Below, in pieces: positions 60 through 9,285 of a stretch of 34,530 nucleotides of DNA. The stretch is from a virus. The notes below the pieces were generated by a model. It was not told where the DNA came from. It ran no database searches and was given only the letters and a program-made list of their open reading frames with translations. The translations under genes were made by a program, and so were the position numbers. How positions within the stretch are numbered: the first letter of the stretch is position 1; each line of letters starts with the position of its first letter. The stretch is taken from positions 1 through 34,530 of IMG/VR virus record IMGVR_UViG_3300031977_002915; one strand, given 5' to 3'.

Positions 60-1019
60 TTAGGCGGGCGCCGGAGCGAACTCGTCGAAGTAGCGCACCG
101 CGCCCGGGAGGCGGATTTCGACGCCGCCGGTGCGCATGATGCCGGCGACCTCCCAGGCCATGGACGACTTCTGCCAGGGCGGCAGGAACCGGAACGGCAT
201 CGGCATATGGAACCGGACCGCCTCGGGGTTGCGCCAGTAGGCCACGCCGCGGGCCACGCCGCCCGCGCCGGCGGTCGCCAGGGAGCGAGAGCCGCGGATC
301 ATCAGCTCCTGGCCCGTGGTGGCCGTGTAGGCGTTGTTGGCCCGGATGAAGGCCAGCAGGGTGGTGTCGGAGCCGGCGCTCATCTGCGTCGAGGCCAGAT
401 AGAGCATCTGTTGCGTCGGCAGGATCAGCGTGTCGGCCATCTCCACCTCATTGGTGTCGACGTGGATGCCGACCAGCACCTCGTTGATGTCCCGGACGAT
501 CTGGGCCGGGGTCTTGGCGGTCCAATACTTCGACGAGGACGCTCCGTCGGCCGCGACGTCAGCGGCGGTCACCGCGGCGTCGTTGAGCAGCCCGGTCCAA
601 CCCTTGGTCGTGTCGCCGGTCATGGCGAGGTTGTAGAGGAAGCTCTCAGCGATGCGGCGGGCGCCGGCCGCCTTATCCGCCGGCAGGTTCTGGCCGAGCA
701 TCCGCGCGAGGTTGATCTCCTCGAGGTTCCACTCGTAGCCGATCCCCCGCATCGCGAACGAATGCTCGTGCTTGTCGCGGGTGATGTCGGCCAGCGGGAT
801 GTCGTTCCCGGCGCCGTTGATCCATTCGGTCTTCCCGACGGAGTCGGACGAATAGAAGGTGGTGGTGCGCGCCCACTCGTTGCCCTCAGTGACGACAGGC
901 ACCAGGGATGCGTAGTCGTAGCTGGGGTAGCGGCGGGCATAAACGCCGGCCTCGATGTTCGAGGTCTGCGAGACGACGAAGCCCTGGGCTTGCTGGGCAT
1001 CGCGGAAGATCTCAGGCAT
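60..1019 (-). CDS. Major capsid protein, DUF2184 family
   Basis: This 319-residue protein resembles the DUF2184 'major capsid family' (HK97-like fold) that builds the icosahedral shell. Supporting features are a long region of mixed alpha/beta type, the central segment around TRDKHEHSFAMRGIGYEWNLEE, and a C-terminal stretch with AWEVAGIMRTGGVEIRLP and AVRYFDEF, typical of the family ending. A strong AGAAGGAG ribosome site precedes the ATG. It is the last gene of the leftward head module in view, after the protease/scaffold and cement genes, which is the usual order. No N-terminal cleavage site is obvious. The family call is confident; the shell role is inferred from family and context. Confidence 0.88.
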   Translation of the reverse strand: MPEIFRDAQQAQGFVVSQTSNIEAGVYARRYPSYDYASLVPVVTEGNEWARTTTFYSSDSVGKTEWINGAGNDIPLADITRDKHEHSFAMRGIGYEWNLEEINLARMLGQNLPADKAAGARRIAESFLYNLAMTGDTTKGWTGLLNDAAVTAADVAADGASSSKYWTAKTPAQIVRDINEVLVGIHVDTNEVEMADTLILPTQQMLYLASTQMSAGSDTTLLAFIRANNAYTATTGQELMIRGSRSLATAGAGGVARGVAYWRNPEAVRFHMPMPFRFLPPWQKSSMAWEVAGIMRTGGVEIRLPGAVRYFDEFAPAPA

Positions 1020-1088: not shown

Positions 1089-1823
1089 TTAACGAAGGGC
1101 CAGGCGGACCAGATCGCCGTTGCCGCCGCTGGTGTCGAAGGCGGCCCCGGGCACGGGGAAGTGCGTGGTGGTCTTGGTGTAGCGGCTCGTCGCCGGGTTC
1201 CAGTAAACCGGATCGGCGGGGGTGACGCTGGCGCCGGCGGTGACCCAGATCACGCCCTGGGTCATCACAGCGACGGTGTCGCCTTCCTCGTAGACGTCCT
1301 GCTCGGCGCCCAGGGTGGTGTCGCGGACGCTGATGCCCAGGAATTCGCCGACGGCGGTTTCCGAGGTGGGGGTGACGACGATGTTGAAGCCGTCGCCGGC
1401 CGAGAAGTCGGTGGAACCGTCGGCGAGGGTGAAGGCCAGGCCCCCAGCCGAGAACGCCGCCGCGACATCGCCCTGACCGATGGTGATGCCATCGGGGTCT
1501 TCGACAATGAAGTTGCCGACGTTCGAGGCGGGCTCGGTGATGGTCAGCTTGTAGGTGCCGACCTTAGCGCCGGCGGACACGGTGATGGCCCCCATGGCGC
1601 CGTTGCCGGTGTTGCCCGCGTAGGCCGTGGCGGCGGCCTCAAGGGTCTCCTGGCTGGCCAGGGCGCAGAGCGCGTCGGCCGAACCGCGGATCACCGGCAC
1701 ACCAAAGGCAAGATCGGCGCCTTCGAGGACCCGGCTGATCTTATTGACCAGTTCGGTGTTGGCCACCATGCCCGGCGTACCGACCGCGCTGGCGTCCGAA
1801 TAGGAAGTCTGAACAGCAGCCAT
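1089..1823 (-). CDS. Head decoration/cement protein (Gp24-like) with inserted Ig-like domain
   Basis: This 244-residue protein resembles the phage 'structural cement protein Gp24' family, which stabilises capsids. The N-terminus (about 1-60) and the C-terminus (about 158-244, rich in G, V, T and D, with SVRDTTLGAEQDVYEEGDTV and FDTSGGNGDLVRLALR) look like the family core. Residues about 66-155 form a beta-rich insert (SAGAKVGTYKLTITEP, VEDPDG, FSAGGLAFTLADG) of the kind found in phage surface and decoration proteins. It sits between the scaffold/protease and capsid genes, as expected for a head accessory. The ribosome site AGAAGGAG is clear. The function is inferred from family and position. 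Confidence 0.75.
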   Translation of the reverse strand: MAAVQTSYSDASAVGTPGMVANTELVNKISRVLEGADLAFGVPVIRGSADALCALASQETLEAAATAYAGNTGNGAMGAITVSAGAKVGTYKLTITEPASNVGNFIVEDPDGITIGQGDVAAAFSAGGLAFTLADGSTDFSAGDGFNIVVTPTSETAVGEFLGISVRDTTLGAEQDVYEEGDTVAVMTQGVIWVTAGASVTPADPVYWNPATSRYTKTTTHFPVPGAAFDTSGGNGDLVRLALR

Positions 1824-1889: not shown

Positions 1890-2444
1890 TTAGGCCGCGG
1901 CCGGGGTCTGCCAGGCCTTGGACAGGTCGTCGCGGTAGGCGTCGTAGGCCTTCTGCGAGGTCGCCTGATCAGACTTGCCGGACAGGCCATCCCGGATCAC
2001 GTCGCGAACCGGGTCGCCATGAGCATCCGAGGTCGGGACCAGGGCCTTGAAGGCGCCGGCGATGGCGTCGTCGCTCATGTCCTTGGCCGCATCGCCCAGC
2101 TTATGGGTGACAGCGGCGCGGCGGATTTCGGCCTCGGTCTTGCCGGCGCCGTCGAAGGTCTCGCCGACGATCTTCTGGGCGACGCCCAGGACCACGGCGC
2201 GCTGATCGGCGAGCTGCTGCAGCTTGGCCGGGGTGACCTCGGCGTCCTTCAGCTTGGCGTTCAGGCCCGCGATCTCGCCGTCCTTGGTGGCGAGTTGGGC
2301 GGTGAGTTCGCCGATCTTCGCCTGGTCCTTGGTCTGGGAGTCGGTCAGGCCGGTAATCTGGCCCAGCAGCTTGGTGATGGCGGCCTCAGCCGCGTCGGTG
2401 ACTTCGACCATGAGGCCGTCCACCAGGATCGTCTTCGTCGCCAC
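1890..2444 (-). CDS. Nested in-frame scaffold protein (internal GTG start)
   Basis: Inside the DUF2213 gene, codon 187 is GTG, preceded at 8-nt spacing by AAAGGAGAT, a better ribosome site than most in the window. Translation from here would give a 184-residue protein consisting only of the coiled-coil and tail portion. This copies the arrangement in phage lambda, where the scaffold Nu3 is read from an in-frame start inside the protease gene C. The start and ribosome site are seen directly. Expression as a separate protein is inference. Confidence 0.55.
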   Translation of the reverse strand: MATKTILVDGLMVEVTDAAEAAITKLLGQITGLTDSQTKDQAKIGELTAQLATKDGEIAGLNAKLKDAEVTPAKLQQLADQRAVVLGVAQKIVGETFDGAGKTEAEIRRAAVTHKLGDAAKDMSDDAIAGAFKALVPTSDAHGDPVRDVIRDGLSGKSDQATSQKAYDAYRDDLSKAWQTPAAA

Positions 2445-3002
2445 GGTCTTATCTCCTTTGGCGTTGCGGTTGTCTCCGAAGCGGAGCTCGGGGCCGCCCC
2501 GCGCCTTGGCGCAAAGGGCGATGTGGTTGGCGCGGATGTTGCGCTGGACGGCGTCGTAGGCCTGGCCGTCGGGGGTCTCGCCCGCGTCGAAGACCAGATC
2601 GCAGGTGTATCCGACTGACAGCTCGCGGCGGCCGGCCTCGAAGTCTGCGATAGCGCCCGCATCCATCAGGGTCAGGGGGACGCGGACGAACTCGCCGTCA
2701 CGGGCGACGTCGCCACCAGCCAGCCCAACGGCGTGCTTCTTCCAGTTATCGGCCGTCACCATCTCCGTCGGGTGGTCAACGGTCATGGGGCGGAAGGCCA
2801 GCGAGGCCAGGGCGTCGGCGGCGAAGACCTCGGCCTCAGAGCGATAGACCCGGATCACGTCGCGGGGGTCTCGGTCGGTCAGACCAATCTCGCCGGCCCG
2901 ATAGGTCTGGATGCCGGTTCGCGAGACTTTGGCGTCGGCGACGAGATAGCCGTCACGGGTGCGGCGCGATCCGTCCAGCACCACGGCGTCGGTGAATTGC
3001 AT
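1890..3002 (-). CDS. DUF2213 protein: probable prohead protease fused to scaffold
   Basis: This is a 370-residue protein. Residues about 1-165 match the DUF2213 family, seen next to capsid genes and regarded as protease-like (YLVADAKVSRTGIQ, VYRSEAEVF, MTVDHPTEMV, GRRELSVGYTCDL). From about residue 187 it changes character to a helical, charged coiled coil (about 205-260, heptad-like SQTKDQAKIGELTAQLATKDGE) and then a flexible tail, as in phage scaffolds. The natural reading is a protease-scaffold fusion with a second internal start (see 1890-2444). It has a good GAAGGAGG ribosome site behind a 9-bp hairpin. Its place directly before the cement and capsid genes supports an assembly role. No catalytic residues can be assigned by eye. 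Confidence 0.8.
   Translation of the reverse strand: MQFTDAVVLDGSRRTRDGYLVADAKVSRTGIQTYRAGEIGLTDRDPRDVIRVYRSEAEVFAADALASLAFRPMTVDHPTEMVTADNWKKHAVGLAGGDVARDGEFVRVPLTLMDAGAIADFEAGRRELSVGYTCDLVFDAGETPDGQAYDAVQRNIRANHIALCAKARGGPELRFGDNRNAKGDKTVATKTILVDGLMVEVTDAAEAAITKLLGQITGLTDSQTKDQAKIGELTAQLATKDGEIAGLNAKLKDAEVTPAKLQQLADQRAVVLGVAQKIVGETFDGAGKTEAEIRRAAVTHKLGDAAKDMSDDAIAGAFKALVPTSDAHGDPVRDVIRDGLSGKSDQATSQKAYDAYRDDLSKAWQTPAAA
2451..2459 (-). promoter_or_regulatory. Internal ribosome binding site for the nested scaffold
   Basis: Read on the minus strand this is AAAGGAGAT, near-perfect complementarity to the 16S 3' end, 6-8 nt before an in-frame GTG at 2444 that coincides with the domain boundary of the host protein. 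Confidence 0.6.
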
Positions 3003-3017
3003 GGCGCGGCCTCCTTC

Positions 3018-3060: not shown

Positions 3061-3501
3061 CTACTGGCGCTGGATGTAGGCGGGGCGCCAGTTGGTGTGG
3101 GCTGTCTGTTCGCGGGTCAAAACCCAGGGGTCGAGGCTATCGAGGACGACAGAGCGGCCACTCGGGAGCGTGACCTCAAGCACCGCGTGGGGCTCTCCCC
3201 AGGACGTGACGACCTGATAGCTGCGGACCTTGTGAGGGTATCCCGCGTCGATCAGGCGACCGAGCTTCAGGCCCGCAACCTCTTCGCAGTTCCAGATGCC
3301 GTCCCGTCCGTCGTTCCAGGGCGTTCCTTGGGGGATTTCGACGTTGGCGGCTCGGTTGATGCTGTTGAGCATCCGAAGGGCTTGGCGGTCGTTCAGGGGC
3401 TCGGCAAGGGCCGCGCACGATGCGCCGATGCCGATGTACACAGCCGCCATGATGGCGATGGCGAGGAAGATTTCTTTGAAGGTGAGGTGGCGGTTGTCCA
3501 T
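3061..3501 (-). CDS. Exported transglutaminase-like cysteine peptidase (BTLCP family)
   Basis: This 146-residue protein begins with a hydrophobic segment (about 8-32, IFLAIAIMAAVYIGIGASCAAL followed by AEP), a signal peptide or membrane anchor, so the protein should act in or face the periplasm. The mature part carries the triad order of bacterial transglutaminase-like cysteine proteinases: Cys in WNCEEVAGLKLGRLIDAGYP, His in PHAVLEV, Asp in VVLDSLDPWV. The ATG at 3501 is chosen because CAGGAG lies 7 nt upstream. It is transcribed divergently from the RHH gene at 3615 and forms with it a cassette splitting the head genes. Candidate roles are lysogenic conversion or superinfection control; neither is shown. 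Substrate unknown. Confidence 0.72.
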   Translation of the reverse strand: MDNRHLTFKEIFLAIAIMAAVYIGIGASCAALAEPLNDRQALRMLNSINRAANVEIPQGTPWNDGRDGIWNCEEVAGLKLGRLIDAGYPHKVRSYQVVTSWGEPHAVLEVTLPSGRSVVLDSLDPWVLTREQTAHTNWRPAYIQRQ

Positions 3502-3539
3502 TCGAGGCTCCTGCTGGGCGCAGGGCTTCGAGGGCATCC

Positions 3540-4543: not shown

Positions 4544-5326
4544 TCAGGCTCCACCAATCGCCGTGAGGAAGGTGTTGATGGCGTTGTGGGCCGCCAACAT
4601 CTGGGCGTCGCTTAGGCCAGCGCCGAAATGAGCCGAGGCGATCCGGCGCGACGAATAGAGACCGGGCGTTCCAAGGGAGATTGTGGCGAGCAGGCCGAAG
4701 TGGTCGCTCTCCAGGCCCGTTGAGGCGCGGGCCGGCGTCGCCAGCTTTACGCCATTCTTAAACTGGCCATATTCCGAACCCGTCAGGCGGCTATAACCCG
4801 AATTGCCCAGCGCATTGGTGATGGCCACCGTGTCTGACGCGCCCACGGCAGATCGCGTGTTGAGTTGTGCGGTTGCCTGCTGCGGAATGATCCGCTCGTT
4901 CAGGTTGCCGAACACCACCCGCGTCGCATCCCCAACGCCCTGGTTTACCCACACGGCGGCGTGGTTGCTGTTTTGGGCATAGTTGCCAGCCGCGGCGACG
5001 GGGTTGAAATTGGTGTTGAGGTAGCTTGTGGACCCGTCGCCCGTGAAACCGCGGTCGGTCGTGAAGGTCGGGCTGTTGACCGGAGTGAGATTGAAAGCCC
5101 CCGGCGCTTTCCAGTTGATCAGGGCCGCCGCAGAGGCGTGCGCGGCAAGCATGTAGAAAGCGTCCAGGCGCGACCAGACATCGGCGGCGATCAGGGCTGA
5201 GACGACCGAGTTGTAGAGCGAGCGGCGCTCCCATGCCGGGGCGCCAGCCTGTTCCATAGCCTCGAGGATCGCCTGGGTTTCGCGCAGATATCCGCCCGAC
5301 AGCACCGGGACAAGCTGCGGGATCAT
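4544..5326 (-). CDS. Phage structural-type protein, LamG/concanavalin-like
   Basis: This 260-residue protein has an N-terminal helical part (about 1-70), then beta-rich sequence resembling lectin/LamG-like jelly-roll proteins of phages (WKAPGAFNLTPVNSPTF, DRGFTGDGSTSYLNTNFNP, HFGLLATISLGTPGLYSSRR, ending AHNAINTFLTAIGG). Such proteins decorate virions or bind carbohydrate. The ATG at 5326 overlaps the upstream stop as TGATG; a GTG one codon earlier is possible. It is the partner of the 193-residue gene just upstream. The fold call is tentative. Confidence 0.65.
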   Translation of the reverse strand: MIPQLVPVLSGGYLRETQAILEAMEQAGAPAWERRSLYNSVVSALIAADVWSRLDAFYMLAAHASAAALINWKAPGAFNLTPVNSPTFTTDRGFTGDGSTSYLNTNFNPVAAAGNYAQNSNHAAVWVNQGVGDATRVVFGNLNERIIPQQATAQLNTRSAVGASDTVAITNALGNSGYSRLTGSEYGQFKNGVKLATPARASTGLESDHFGLLATISLGTPGLYSSRRIASAHFGAGLSDAQMLAAHNAINTFLTAIGGA

Positions 5327-5907
5327 CACCCGCGGACGCCTTCGATGACCGGCCAGAACTTCTCAGCCGAGGCGGGCGTGTAGGCGGCCAGGGCCTGGAT
5401 CACAAGGAAGATGGAGGTTCCCGTCACAGGGCGCAGGGTCAGGCCCGTGCCGACCACGGGAACCGCCACGCCGACCGCACCGTCAGCCGCATCGTTCCCG
5501 GCGCGATTGATCGTCACGTCCACATAGCCGGCGTAGTAGCGCATGGAATCGACGGTGAGCGCGGTCAGAGCGCCCAGGGCGCCGTTATCGCCTACGCCCA
5601 AGGTCGGGCGGCTTTCGAAGAAGTGGAGCCGAAACTGCGCGCTGGTCGTGGTGTTCGTGGACTTGGCCAGGCGGACCCGCTCGACGCGCAGGGACTGGCC
5701 AGCAGCCGCGACCGCATTCGCGATCTCGATGACGTTGGCGTCGTTGACCGACGTGTTCGCCCCGACGAGGTCGTTGGACGCATAGACTGCAGTATCGGTC
5801 GGCCGGGTCAGCTCGCCGCGCAGGACGGCGATGGAGTCGAGGCTGATCGTCGCCCCGGCCTCCCTCGGCTTTCCATCAGACCCGGTGACGATGGGAAGAT
5901 CAGACAT
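5326..5907 (-). CDS. Hypothetical phage structural protein
   Basis: This 193-residue beta-rich protein is low in charge and cysteine (LRVERVRLAKSTNTTTSAQF, RLHFFESRPTLGVGDNGALG, RPVTGTSIFLVIQALAAYTP). I do not recognise a named domain. It resembles small head or decoration-type proteins placed between portal/minor-head and capsid genes. The ATG at 5907 has GGAGG 8 nt upstream and is preferred over an upstream in-frame codon. It is followed without gap by the LamG-like gene. Confidence 0.65.
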   Translation of the reverse strand: MSDLPIVTGSDGKPREAGATISLDSIAVLRGELTRPTDTAVYASNDLVGANTSVNDANVIEIANAVAAAGQSLRVERVRLAKSTNTTTSAQFRLHFFESRPTLGVGDNGALGALTALTVDSMRYYAGYVDVTINRAGNDAADGAVGVAVPVVGTGLTLRPVTGTSIFLVIQALAAYTPASAEKFWPVIEGVRG

Positions 5908-6247: not shown

Positions 6248-7264
6248 TCACTGTAGGCCCGCCCGGCTGAAGGCGGAAGCGTCTCTCTCGCGAAGCTCCG
6301 GCAGGGTCAGGGTCACGCCCTTGCGGTCAACGAAGCGGTCGAGCTCGATCTCGCCGGAGCGGAACAGTTTGGCCCGGGTGGCGCCCAGGATGTCGTCTTG
6401 CACGTCCTTGGGCTGCTTGCGAAGCCATTCGGGATAGGTCTGGCGGTTGAACTCGGCCACGCCCTCAATCTTGGCGAGGACGGGGGCCGTGACGCTCCGG
6501 CATCCGACATGCGCCGGGGGCCGGGGGCCCTTGTCCACCGGGTATCGCTTTCCATCGCGGCTGGCGCAGATCAGGGTGGTCCGGCTGTCCAGGGTCGAGA
6601 CCCATTCGACCTCTTTGACGATCCCGCCAGCCTGGCGATAGGTCTCCTCGTGCGCGACGGCCGAGGTGTGTGTGATCGCCGTCCTGACCATAGCCTCGGC
6701 GCCGCGCCGGCTGATCTCCATGGCGCCGTCTCGATATCGCAGGGCTCGGGTTCCTCGGATGGCCCGGACGATCTGCGACGTGGTCTGGCCTTCGATGACG
6801 CCGGTCCTGATCGTCTCCCTGACCCGGCGCGCCGTCCCCTCCTCCGCGCCGCTCAGCCATTCCCGGAGATATCGCCCCTGGAACGGCCGGGCCTGGACCG
6901 CGGCCCAGACCATGGTCGGTTGCGGGACCGGGGAGAAGACGCCCCGGCCACCGGCGGCGCCCAGGCGGACCAAGCGGGTGGCGAACAGGGCCTCCTCGTC
7001 GGAGAGTTCGGCGAGGTCGCCCTCGAAGCGCCGGCCGATGGTCTGCCAGCCCGTGGCGATCAGGTCGCGGATCCCTTCGAGCAGGACCTCCAGGCGGCTC
7101 AGCCCAAGGGTGTCAGGCTCTGACGCCGCGATCCTGGCGACGACATCGCGCTCGACGCGATTGAGCTGCGAGATGACCCGCCTGACCACGAAGTTGCTGT
7201 AGCGGCCCAACCCGATGCGATGGCCAACAGCCAGGTCGATGATGGTCTGGCGCGGATCGCTCAC
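6248..7264 (-). CDS. Minor head protein, SPP1 gp7 / Mu gpF type head morphogenesis
   Basis: This 338-residue protein carries the C-terminal signature of the SPP1-gp7/Mu-F head morphogenesis family: AEAMVRTAITHTSAVAHEE, EVEWVSTLDSRTTLICASRDGKRYPV, then PPAHVGCRSVTAPVL (about 190-265). These proteins enter the prohead with the portal and help assembly or DNA ejection. The GTG start overlaps the portal stop as GTGA, indicating translational coupling. The gene order portal then gp7-like is canonical. Confidence 0.87.
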   Translation of the reverse strand: MSDPRQTIIDLAVGHRIGLGRYSNFVVRRVISQLNRVERDVVARIAASEPDTLGLSRLEVLLEGIRDLIATGWQTIGRRFEGDLAELSDEEALFATRLVRLGAAGGRGVFSPVPQPTMVWAAVQARPFQGRYLREWLSGAEEGTARRVRETIRTGVIEGQTTSQIVRAIRGTRALRYRDGAMEISRRGAEAMVRTAITHTSAVAHEETYRQAGGIVKEVEWVSTLDSRTTLICASRDGKRYPVDKGPRPPAHVGCRSVTAPVLAKIEGVAEFNRQTYPEWLRKQPKDVQDDILGATRAKLFRSGEIELDRFVDRKGVTLTLPELRERDASAFSRAGLQ

Positions 7265-9285
7265 TGTTCGGCGAGGCCTTCAGACCAGGCCTCGTTCAGC
7301 TCCTCGAACATCTCCGGCCCAAGCTCGATCACGCCGCGATAGGGTTCGACGGTCGCGAGGTCCAGGTCCGCGCCGGAATAGGTGATGGTCACATGAGGCT
7401 GGTACTCGGGATAGTCCCAGGTCGCGCCGGCCTTGCGGATGGTCATGTGGCGCCAGGCGAGCGCACTCGAGGCGAACATCAGGACCACGGCGCCCTTGTC
7501 GCCCAGGGCTTCGACCATGCGAGGCCCGCCGGCGCTGACCGTGAGGTTGCCCTCCTTCGTCGCGCTCCAGTCCTCCTCGACCTTCATCCAGTCCACCGGC
7601 GCCCGGCTATAGGCGACCGTGACGTGCAACTCATCGGCCGGGACCGTGGTGGTGAAGCCCTGCGACTTGGCCCAGGCGATGATCTCTGAGGCGTTCAGGA
7701 CCTCGCGGCTCACATAGAGCGTGCGTGGTTCGGCATCAGCGATCGCGGCCGCGGCCTGCGGGCCGGCTTCCTCGCCCGGCACCTCGGGGGCATCCTCGCC
7801 TTCCGGCTCATTCATCCCGCCCATGCCGCCGCCCTCTTCCTCGATGGCGGTGCGGAAGGCGTCGAAGCTCATGCCCTTGGGCAGAAGTCCGGCCTCGCTC
7901 AACCGGGTGAACAGGGCCTCTTGCGGCGCGGCCCCGGCCTGCCAGGCGGCAAGCAGCGCCTTGAACATCTCGATGGGCAGGCCGACCTTGGCGGCGGTGT
8001 CTTCCAGGGCCTTTTCGAGGCCGGGATAAACCGCGCCTTCGATCAGGGTGTTTTGCACCGCCTTGGCCAGGGCCGGCAGCGGGACCAGGCCGGAGTCGGC
8101 ATAGAGTTTGGCCGTCTCGGCGTGCTTGTGCTGGATATCGGCCTCTTCCTTCGGATCAGGCGTCTCCAGGGCGGCGAAGCGGTAATGGACCGAGGCTGGC
8201 GTCGATCCCAGTGCCGACGGGACCAGGAAGGCGTCGAGGCGGTCCAGGGCGGGCTTCAGGTCGGTTTCCTGCCGGGCCGCGATCATCTCGTCGTAGTTGT
8301 CGTTGTCGCCCTCGCCGGTCGCGTTCAGACCCTTGGCCGACGTGCCCAGCAGGCGGGTCACCGGGATGTCAGCCGCGGCGGCGACGATCTGCAGGAACTT
8401 GTCGATCAGGTCCGGCAGGCCGGTGAACGACAGCTCGCGGGTGTCCCACTCTTCAGCCGCGTCGAGGATGCGGGTGTTGAGGATCGACTTGGCGAGGTTG
8501 GCCGTGTTGAGCCGGCTGATCAGGCGAGTCTCGTACTCTGCCGAGGACAGGTTCGACGAGAGATTGGGGATCTTGAGGGTGTCGACCTTAGCCTCGTGGA
8601 TAAGGCTCGCCGTGGCGTTCTGCGCCAGGTCGGCATTGGTCACGGCGTCGCGGACGATCTGATATAGCGGATCACCCCAGAAGGTCTCTTGCGTCTGGAC
8701 CCCGACCACGCCTTCCGGCAGGGCCTGGCCGATGAAGGGGATGACGCGCGAGGGGTGGACGTTGGCCTGGCGGGTCGATCCGGTCAGCTGATAGCTCACA
8801 GGCTGGCCGAACAGAGGCGACAGCGGGTCGCGCTCGATGTCCTCGATCTGGACCTGGTGACGGGTCAGGACATGGATGTAGGACAGCCCGCCCTTGCCGA
8901 CCTGCCCAGCCGGCTCCGCGGCCTTGCCCGGCAGGCCCAGGACCAGGGCCGCGCCGCCATACAGTCGCGCCCAGAGCAGGGCCTTGCGGACCTTGGCCGA
9001 CAGGGCGAGGCGCCGCTCCTCGGCTTCGATGGCCTCGATCTGATCGCCTTCAGCCTGCCAGTTTCGCCAGGCCCGGGTCATGTCCCAGGGCGGCAGGTCA
9101 TGGATCTTTCGGACTAGCCAGGACGACCGATACGCGCTTTCGACCTCGGCGATGTTCACCGGGTTCAGCGTGTAGGTGTCGAAGCTGCGCTTATCCCGAG
9201 CCCCGCCGACGCCAGATATGACGTTCGACAGGCCGTCCATAGTCAGACCGCCAGGGCGGCCGGTGCGGCGGAAAGATGGCTGCAT
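7261..9285 (-). CDS. Portal protein (DUF1073) with C-terminal Acb1-like 2H phosphoesterase
   Basis: This is a 674-residue protein. Residues about 20-480 match the DUF1073 portal family (AYRSSWLVRKIHDLPPWDMT, ARLYGGAALVLGL, VTRLLGTSAKGLNATGEGD, YDEMIAARQE), which forms the dodecameric DNA channel. A Gly/Glu-rich linker (about 484-519) leads to a domain at about 520-674 with two HxT motifs, ELHVTVAYS (His554, Thr556) and PHVTITYSG (His631, Thr633). These are the hallmark of 2H phosphoesterases and of the anti-CBASS nuclease Acb1, which degrades cyclic-nucleotide alarm signals. DUF1073 and Acb1-like domains are known together in sequence families. GGAGG precedes the ATG. The portal role is confident; anti-CBASS activity is inferred. 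Confidence 0.88.
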   Translation of the reverse strand: MQPSFRRTGRPGGLTMDGLSNVISGVGGARDKRSFDTYTLNPVNIAEVESAYRSSWLVRKIHDLPPWDMTRAWRNWQAEGDQIEAIEAEERRLALSAKVRKALLWARLYGGAALVLGLPGKAAEPAGQVGKGGLSYIHVLTRHQVQIEDIERDPLSPLFGQPVSYQLTGSTRQANVHPSRVIPFIGQALPEGVVGVQTQETFWGDPLYQIVRDAVTNADLAQNATASLIHEAKVDTLKIPNLSSNLSSAEYETRLISRLNTANLAKSILNTRILDAAEEWDTRELSFTGLPDLIDKFLQIVAAAADIPVTRLLGTSAKGLNATGEGDNDNYDEMIAARQETDLKPALDRLDAFLVPSALGSTPASVHYRFAALETPDPKEEADIQHKHAETAKLYADSGLVPLPALAKAVQNTLIEGAVYPGLEKALEDTAAKVGLPIEMFKALLAAWQAGAAPQEALFTRLSEAGLLPKGMSFDAFRTAIEEEGGGMGGMNEPEGEDAPEVPGEEAGPQAAAAIADAEPRTLYVSREVLNASEIIAWAKSQGFTTTVPADELHVTVAYSRAPVDWMKVEEDWSATKEGNLTVSAGGPRMVEALGDKGAVVLMFASSALAWRHMTIRKAGATWDYPEYQPHVTITYSGADLDLATVEPYRGVIELGPEMFEELNEAWSEGLAEQ

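Follow-up and report, generated by a model that had tools for sequence, protein, structure and literature searches.

The gene at positions 3002 to 1890 of the window, by which we mean the whole 34,530-nucleotide stretch analysed (positions 1 to 34,530 of the IMG/VR virus record IMGVR_UViG_3300031977_002915), raises the question of whether it specifies one head protein or two. A preliminary description had proposed that a scaffold gene with its own ribosome site is nested in this DUF2213 protease gene. The strand was missing from that description; the coordinates of the gene and of the site are all on the minus strand. The features of the gene are as follows.

1890..3002, minus strand: full-length gene, DUF2213 head-maturation protease with putative scaffold tail, 370 aa, 39.3 kDa
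3011..3016, minus strand: Shine-Dalgarno sequence (SD) of the full-length product, AAGGAG, 8 nt before ATG 3002-3000, dG -11.7
2463..3002, minus strand: protease domain, residues 1-180, from fold comparison and the AlphaFold model
2442..2471, minus strand: unstructured junction, residues 178-187, pLDDT <50 in the AlphaFold model, also encoding the putative internal ribosome site and start
2451..2459, minus strand: putative internal SD, AAAGGAGAT, best of 11 in-frame NTG sites, dG -8.7
2442..2444, minus strand: putative internal start GTG, codon 187 of 370, at the position of a conserved internal ATG/GTG in relatives
1890..2444, minus strand: putative nested, in-frame, 3'-coterminal scaffold ORF, 184 aa, 19.17 kDa, pI 5.0
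2400..2435, minus strand: beta-hairpin, residues 190-201, which includes the VDGL motif and opens the structured part of the nested protein
2241..2396, minus strand: long helix or coiled coil, residues 203-254, in the AlphaFold model

The assignment of the full-length protein was examined first by profile searches. The DUF2213 HMM (PF09979) matched residues 14-177 with an E-value of 2.7e-53 and 180.8 bits against a curated cut-off of 22, and the head maturation protease family phrog_530 matched residues 2-367 (E 4.5e-95). In an AlphaFold model built with 31 sequences (mean pLDDT 84.7), a confident beta-rich domain precedes the unstructured stretch, and a structured tail begins at approximately residue 190. 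The proposed site had been placed exactly where the protein changes from the DUF2213 domain to the coiled-coil part, and this placement agrees with both the end of the HMM match and the position of the junction in the model.

The internal ribosome site itself was also found as described. AAAGGAGAT (2459-2451) is followed by the six nucleotides AAGACC and then by the in-frame GTG of codon 187. Among the 11 in-frame ATG, GTG and TTG codons of the gene, anti-SD pairing was strongest at this codon, and the next best value was -5.5. On the other side, the internal start of the window is GTG rather than ATG and the local RNA structure is only moderately weak, both of which count against the site.

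Subsequently, both strands of the window were scanned for the pattern AAGGAG-N4-9-RTG, which occurred in four places: at the starts of the DUF2213, cement and major capsid genes, and at the internal site. The head genes concerned and their surroundings are listed below.

1089..1823, minus strand: capsid cement protein, the next gene downstream, PF22758 E 1.3e-26, Pam3 gp6 / E217 gp24 family
1837-1832, minus strand: AAGGAG of the cement gene, from the pattern scan
60..1019, minus strand: major capsid protein, PF09950 E 1e-81, Pam3 capsid 8hdt E 7.5e-76
1034-1029, minus strand: AAGGAG of the major capsid gene, from the pattern scan
7261-9285, minus strand: portal, PF06381
6248-7264: Mu F-like gene

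In a GC-rich gene, chance alone might place an SD-like string ahead of an in-frame GTG, and the number of matches is in keeping with this, as shuffled sequences gave a mean of 2.0 and 19 of 100 shuffles reached four. It is the placement of the sites, rather than their number, that is telling: apart from the internal site, all of them mark the starts of the DUF2213 gene and of neighbouring head genes. Furthermore, most relatives have the feature at the corresponding position, as shown below. Provided that the homologue alignments are correct, this conservation refutes a chance origin, to which we assign next to no probability.

Two further observations were made in this region. At its C-terminus, the portal protein carries a fused anti-CBASS phosphodiesterase domain of the Acb1 type (PF23474, E 9.9e-45, residues 521-669), in which two HxT motifs are visible. 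Upstream of the DUF2213 gene lies a small gene (3061-3537, minus strand) whose product is similar to transglutaminase-like cysteine proteinases of bacteria (PF06035, E 5e-7), which is unexpected within a head module.

For the analysis of conservation, viral contigs and phage records supplied 123 DUF2213 genes, which were reduced to 58 representatives at 70% identity. The internal start was picked without regard to the SD, as the nearest ATG, or else GTG or TTG, upstream of the tail motif; in four loci (L010, L020, L031 and L076) the nearest ATG/GTG was a second one inside the tail, and the later measures used the first. The start was present in 56 of the 58 representatives and was ATG in 53 of these 56. 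An in-frame ATG stood 3-11 codons before the VDGL (DG) motif of the tail in 52/58, where the Met frequency predicts 14%. In 32 of 56 genes, against 3.4 expected, the internal start had a stronger SD than any other in-frame NTG codon, and the first-rank count never exceeded 14 in 100,000 simulations; the p-values for conservation of the start and SD ignore the relatedness of the genes. When the protease domains were grouped by single linkage at 50% identity, nine clusters resulted, with the start found in eight and an SD within the top 10% in five. Thus, the suggestion that the internal site and start would be conserved in DUF2213 homologues having the same tail was borne out.

The site also resembled translation starts in other respects. 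Mean anti-SD pairing over the 180-nt surroundings peaked at the start codon (-7.4 kcal/mol) and was about -1 to -4 elsewhere. The median SD was stronger at the internal starts (-7.3) than at the genes' own starts (-5.1), the latter being partly chosen by us where annotation was absent. RNA folding was weaker at the internal site (-5.5 versus -9.3 kcal/mol), and a small residue occupied position 2 after 41 of 55 internal starts, compared with 49% after other in-frame ATG/GTG codons; weak structure and small second residues are both features of translation starts.

The start was absent from the Chaseviridae phages L119 and L120 and from the group of L051, L061 and L069. These lineages also lack VDGL, which suggests that the motif was lost or gained along with the start; the three members of the latter group have a coiled-coil tail with neither the internal start nor the motif. 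In another three loci (L026, L114 and L116) the SD was weak or absent.

The position of the start was then compared with the two parts of the protein. The start stood 3-15 codons before the tail motif, whereas its separation from the protease varied from 8 to 116. Even in L023, L065 and L076, where 85-116 residues separate the protease from the start, the ATG with its SD stands just before the tail. The stretch of tail similarity in phage records starts within residues 1-5 of the nested protein. When further loci were retrieved solely on the basis of the tail, most of them outside the set that had defined the pattern, they showed the same ATG and SD. These sequence comparisons indicate that the internal start travels with the tail, not with the protease. 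The same tail search gave no stand-alone tail ORF, and every complete locus inspected had the tail fused to DUF2213.

Several individual loci deserve mention here. L152, L155 and L129 combine closely similar tails with linkers or protease domains that differ clearly, which suggests exchange of protease and scaffold modules by recombination close to the internal start. In L081, the DUF2213 ORF is frameshifted right at the junction (195 aa, RIGDGVSRGALPRS...), owing either to a sequencing error or to decay of a prophage. In L017, an in-frame stop interrupts the protease part (YTGA*VGKPEM) and leaves the tail and internal start intact, which may be an error or a true loss of the protease.

The conserved feature could in principle be a peptide rather than a DNA signal. 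If only the long product were made and cleaved itself in the linker to free the scaffold, the SD-like sequence would be simply a charged, flexible linker suited to cleavage. Fused scaffolds are indeed cut by head proteases, the linker is unstructured in the model, SD-like codons follow from K, E and G residues, and some lineages have no internal start. A cleavage site would, however, be expected to keep its amino acids, whereas almost no two linkers at the SD are alike (AKGDKT, HRELPN, PNEGGH, TNEDKQ and NMEKKP are examples) and the SD core lies in codon phases 0, 1 and 2 in 25, 22 and 6 genes, respectively. Since the SD is kept in all three phases, it is the DNA signal, not the amino acids, that is conserved. 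The spacing of start and motif, which stays short where the protease lies far away, likewise argues for selection on the DNA. Moreover, neither a Met or Val at constant spacing from the tail motif nor the small residue after it has an evident role in cleavage, and the SD peak is restricted to the start codon. Self-cleavage of a single product is accordingly judged improbable. Shuffling of synonymous codons added weak support for an SD (Fisher p 0.04, with starts chosen by best SD), because the linker residues (KE, KG, EGG) themselves yield an SD and the two cannot be separated in this way; in its place we relied on the rank among in-frame starts, the sliding profile, the codon phase and the behaviour of the linker length.

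From the conserved start and SD, we predict with high confidence that one gene gives both a protease-scaffold fusion and a separately initiated scaffold. Initiation at ATG 3002 would yield a minor 39-kDa fusion, and initiation at AAAGGAGAT...GTG (2444) on the same mRNA would yield a separate and presumably more abundant 19-kDa scaffold without the protease; both proteins would end at the same stop codon. The shared helical tail would co-assemble the two in the procapsid, placing few protease copies among many scaffold copies, and after assembly of the shell the protease would trim the head and remove the scaffold.

The predicted 19.2-kDa nested product is very probably a scaffold by analogy, because a DUF2213 homologue, Pa193 gp24 of a Pbunavirus (PDB 9b40; E 3.3e-10 to the window protein), has been seen inside the capsid. 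In the cryo-EM report, residues 286-326 of gp24 form a pentameric helix-turn-helix bound inside the five-fold vertices, and the authors take the protein to be a scaffold, possibly one subject to cleavage (PMC11042391). The corresponding protein of Pseudomonas phage BL6 (L113, PQ149444.1) matches the 9b40 chain over all 478 residues and has the internal ATG at codon 195; residues 286-326 would consequently belong to the nested product too. In the deposited BL6 annotation, two hypothetical CDSs on the opposite strand cover the unannotated DUF2213 gene (L113, 2468-5474). Pa193 gp24 differs from the window protein in its length of 478 aa, its longer and diverged tail and its weaker SD (-6.1), and an internal start is unmentioned for it in the available part of that text (PMC11042391).

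The same structure could be read differently, namely that the internal start is real and the short protein is an accessory head protein, a protease regulator or a vertex plug retained in the virion, not the main scaffold. The Pa193 tail fragment stays in the mature virion at the five-fold vertices, unlike a scaffold that is fully removed; yet its authors favour a scaffold (PMC11042391). In the window, no other scaffold candidate was seen from the portal to the major capsid gene. The DUF2213 gene has the portal and Mu F-like genes on one side and those for the cement and major capsid proteins on the other, as in nested protease/scaffold pairs, and this position, the long helix and the parallels with Mu, lambda and herpesviruses fit a scaffold. 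We therefore regard an accessory role as very improbable and take the short protein as the predicted scaffold in what follows.

As the preliminary description had anticipated, standard annotation was confined to the long product, a nested CDS being present in none of 23 DUF2213 phage records. Each gene is entered as a single protein, whose name may be 'major head subunit precursor', 'capsid protein' or 'hypothetical protein', and the nested start is apparently unannotated throughout the family. Matches to DUF2213 proteins were obtained in 1,799 of the 50,697 phage records searched, including many Klebsiella phages, E. coli T1-like phages and Pseudomonas Pbunavirus phages; the internal start was examined in a subset. 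In the T1-like phage SH2, the internal ATG is codon 209. In the surveyed literature that names DUF2213 we found no treatment of an internal start, and the papers surveyed on nested scaffold starts yielded only Mu-like phages, the closest published remark being a putative Val177 internal start in the Mu-like Pseudomonas phage PaMx73 (PMC4378225). The nested protease/scaffold arrangement is thus already known, and for DUF2213 no earlier report was found. A nested start would correct mass-spectrometry and annotation databases. It would also affect the cloning of DUF2213 head genes, where an internal start left intact alters the proteins expressed.

Among known systems, a full-length relative is found in Pseudanabaena phage Pam3, whose gp5 'head scaffold protein' shares 41% identity and has the same internal SD with ATG at codon 191. 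The Pam3 head is structurally close, sharing the cement family PF22758; gp5 is, however, annotated as one long scaffold protein.

Phage Mu genes I and Z offer the same arrangement, with an in-frame internal start after a protease domain, directly upstream of the head genes, and with the annotated Z beginning inside I. Used as a positive control, Z scored like the DUF2213 internal starts (rank 1/16, dG -7.4). The protease differs: Mu I matches Mu-like_Pro (PF10123) at 2.3e-98, whereas the window protein has no match to it at E<=1 and by this profile is not a member of the Mu gpI family.

The likeness to lambda C/Nu3 drawn in the preliminary description extends to the mechanism, in which a scaffold gene is nested in frame within a protease gene and shares its 3' end. 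It does not extend to the protease family, and closer parallels than lambda exist. Lambda gpC is an S49 peptidase, matching PF01343 at 1.5e-44; the window protein has no such match, and a gpC-type protease was rejected. The annotated Nu3 start (position 5132) failed as a positive control, having a weak SD (dG -2.7, rank 12/35). In lambda gene C (L131, NC_001416, 119-1438), the strongest SD before an in-frame ATG was at codon 309, record position 5342 (dG -10.8). Later work on lambda reportedly put the nu3 start further downstream.

With respect to fold, the predicted protease domain was compared with known structures by VIA-align. The best match was T4 gp21 (5jbl; Z 10.9, rmsd 2.5, 130 residues), followed by herpesvirus proteases (Z 6-8.4), of which pseudorabies pUL26N scored 8.4; the spans of the predicted model aligned with gp21 and pUL26N were 116-130 residues. 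Foldseek with the whole model gave weak matches, with the EBV protease at the top (E 0.0095, probability 0.99). By these model comparisons, the protease domain has the T4 gp21 / herpesvirus assemblin fold. H77, S129 and H160 are invariant in 31 aligned relatives, and by analogy with the His-Ser-His order of herpesvirus proteases they are candidate catalytic residues.

In T4, the protease (gp21) and the major scaffold (gp22) are encoded by separate genes. In herpesviruses (UL26/UL26.5; UL80/UL80.5 in HCMV), a protease of this fold class is fused to a scaffold that is also made alone from a nested 3'-coterminal gene, an arrangement thought to set the protease:scaffold stoichiometry (PMC9732275). 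One might imagine that a nested 3'-coterminal scaffold gene is ancestral to proteases of the assemblin/T4 gp21 fold and did not originate separately in each group, although we consider such common descent doubtful. The short product would then be made by internal ribosome entry in DUF2213 phages, T1-like phages and Pbunavirus included, and from a nested transcript in herpesviruses. The two systems differ in this respect, since the herpesvirus scaffold has a separate transcript whereas an internal ribosome site on one mRNA is proposed for the DUF2213 gene.
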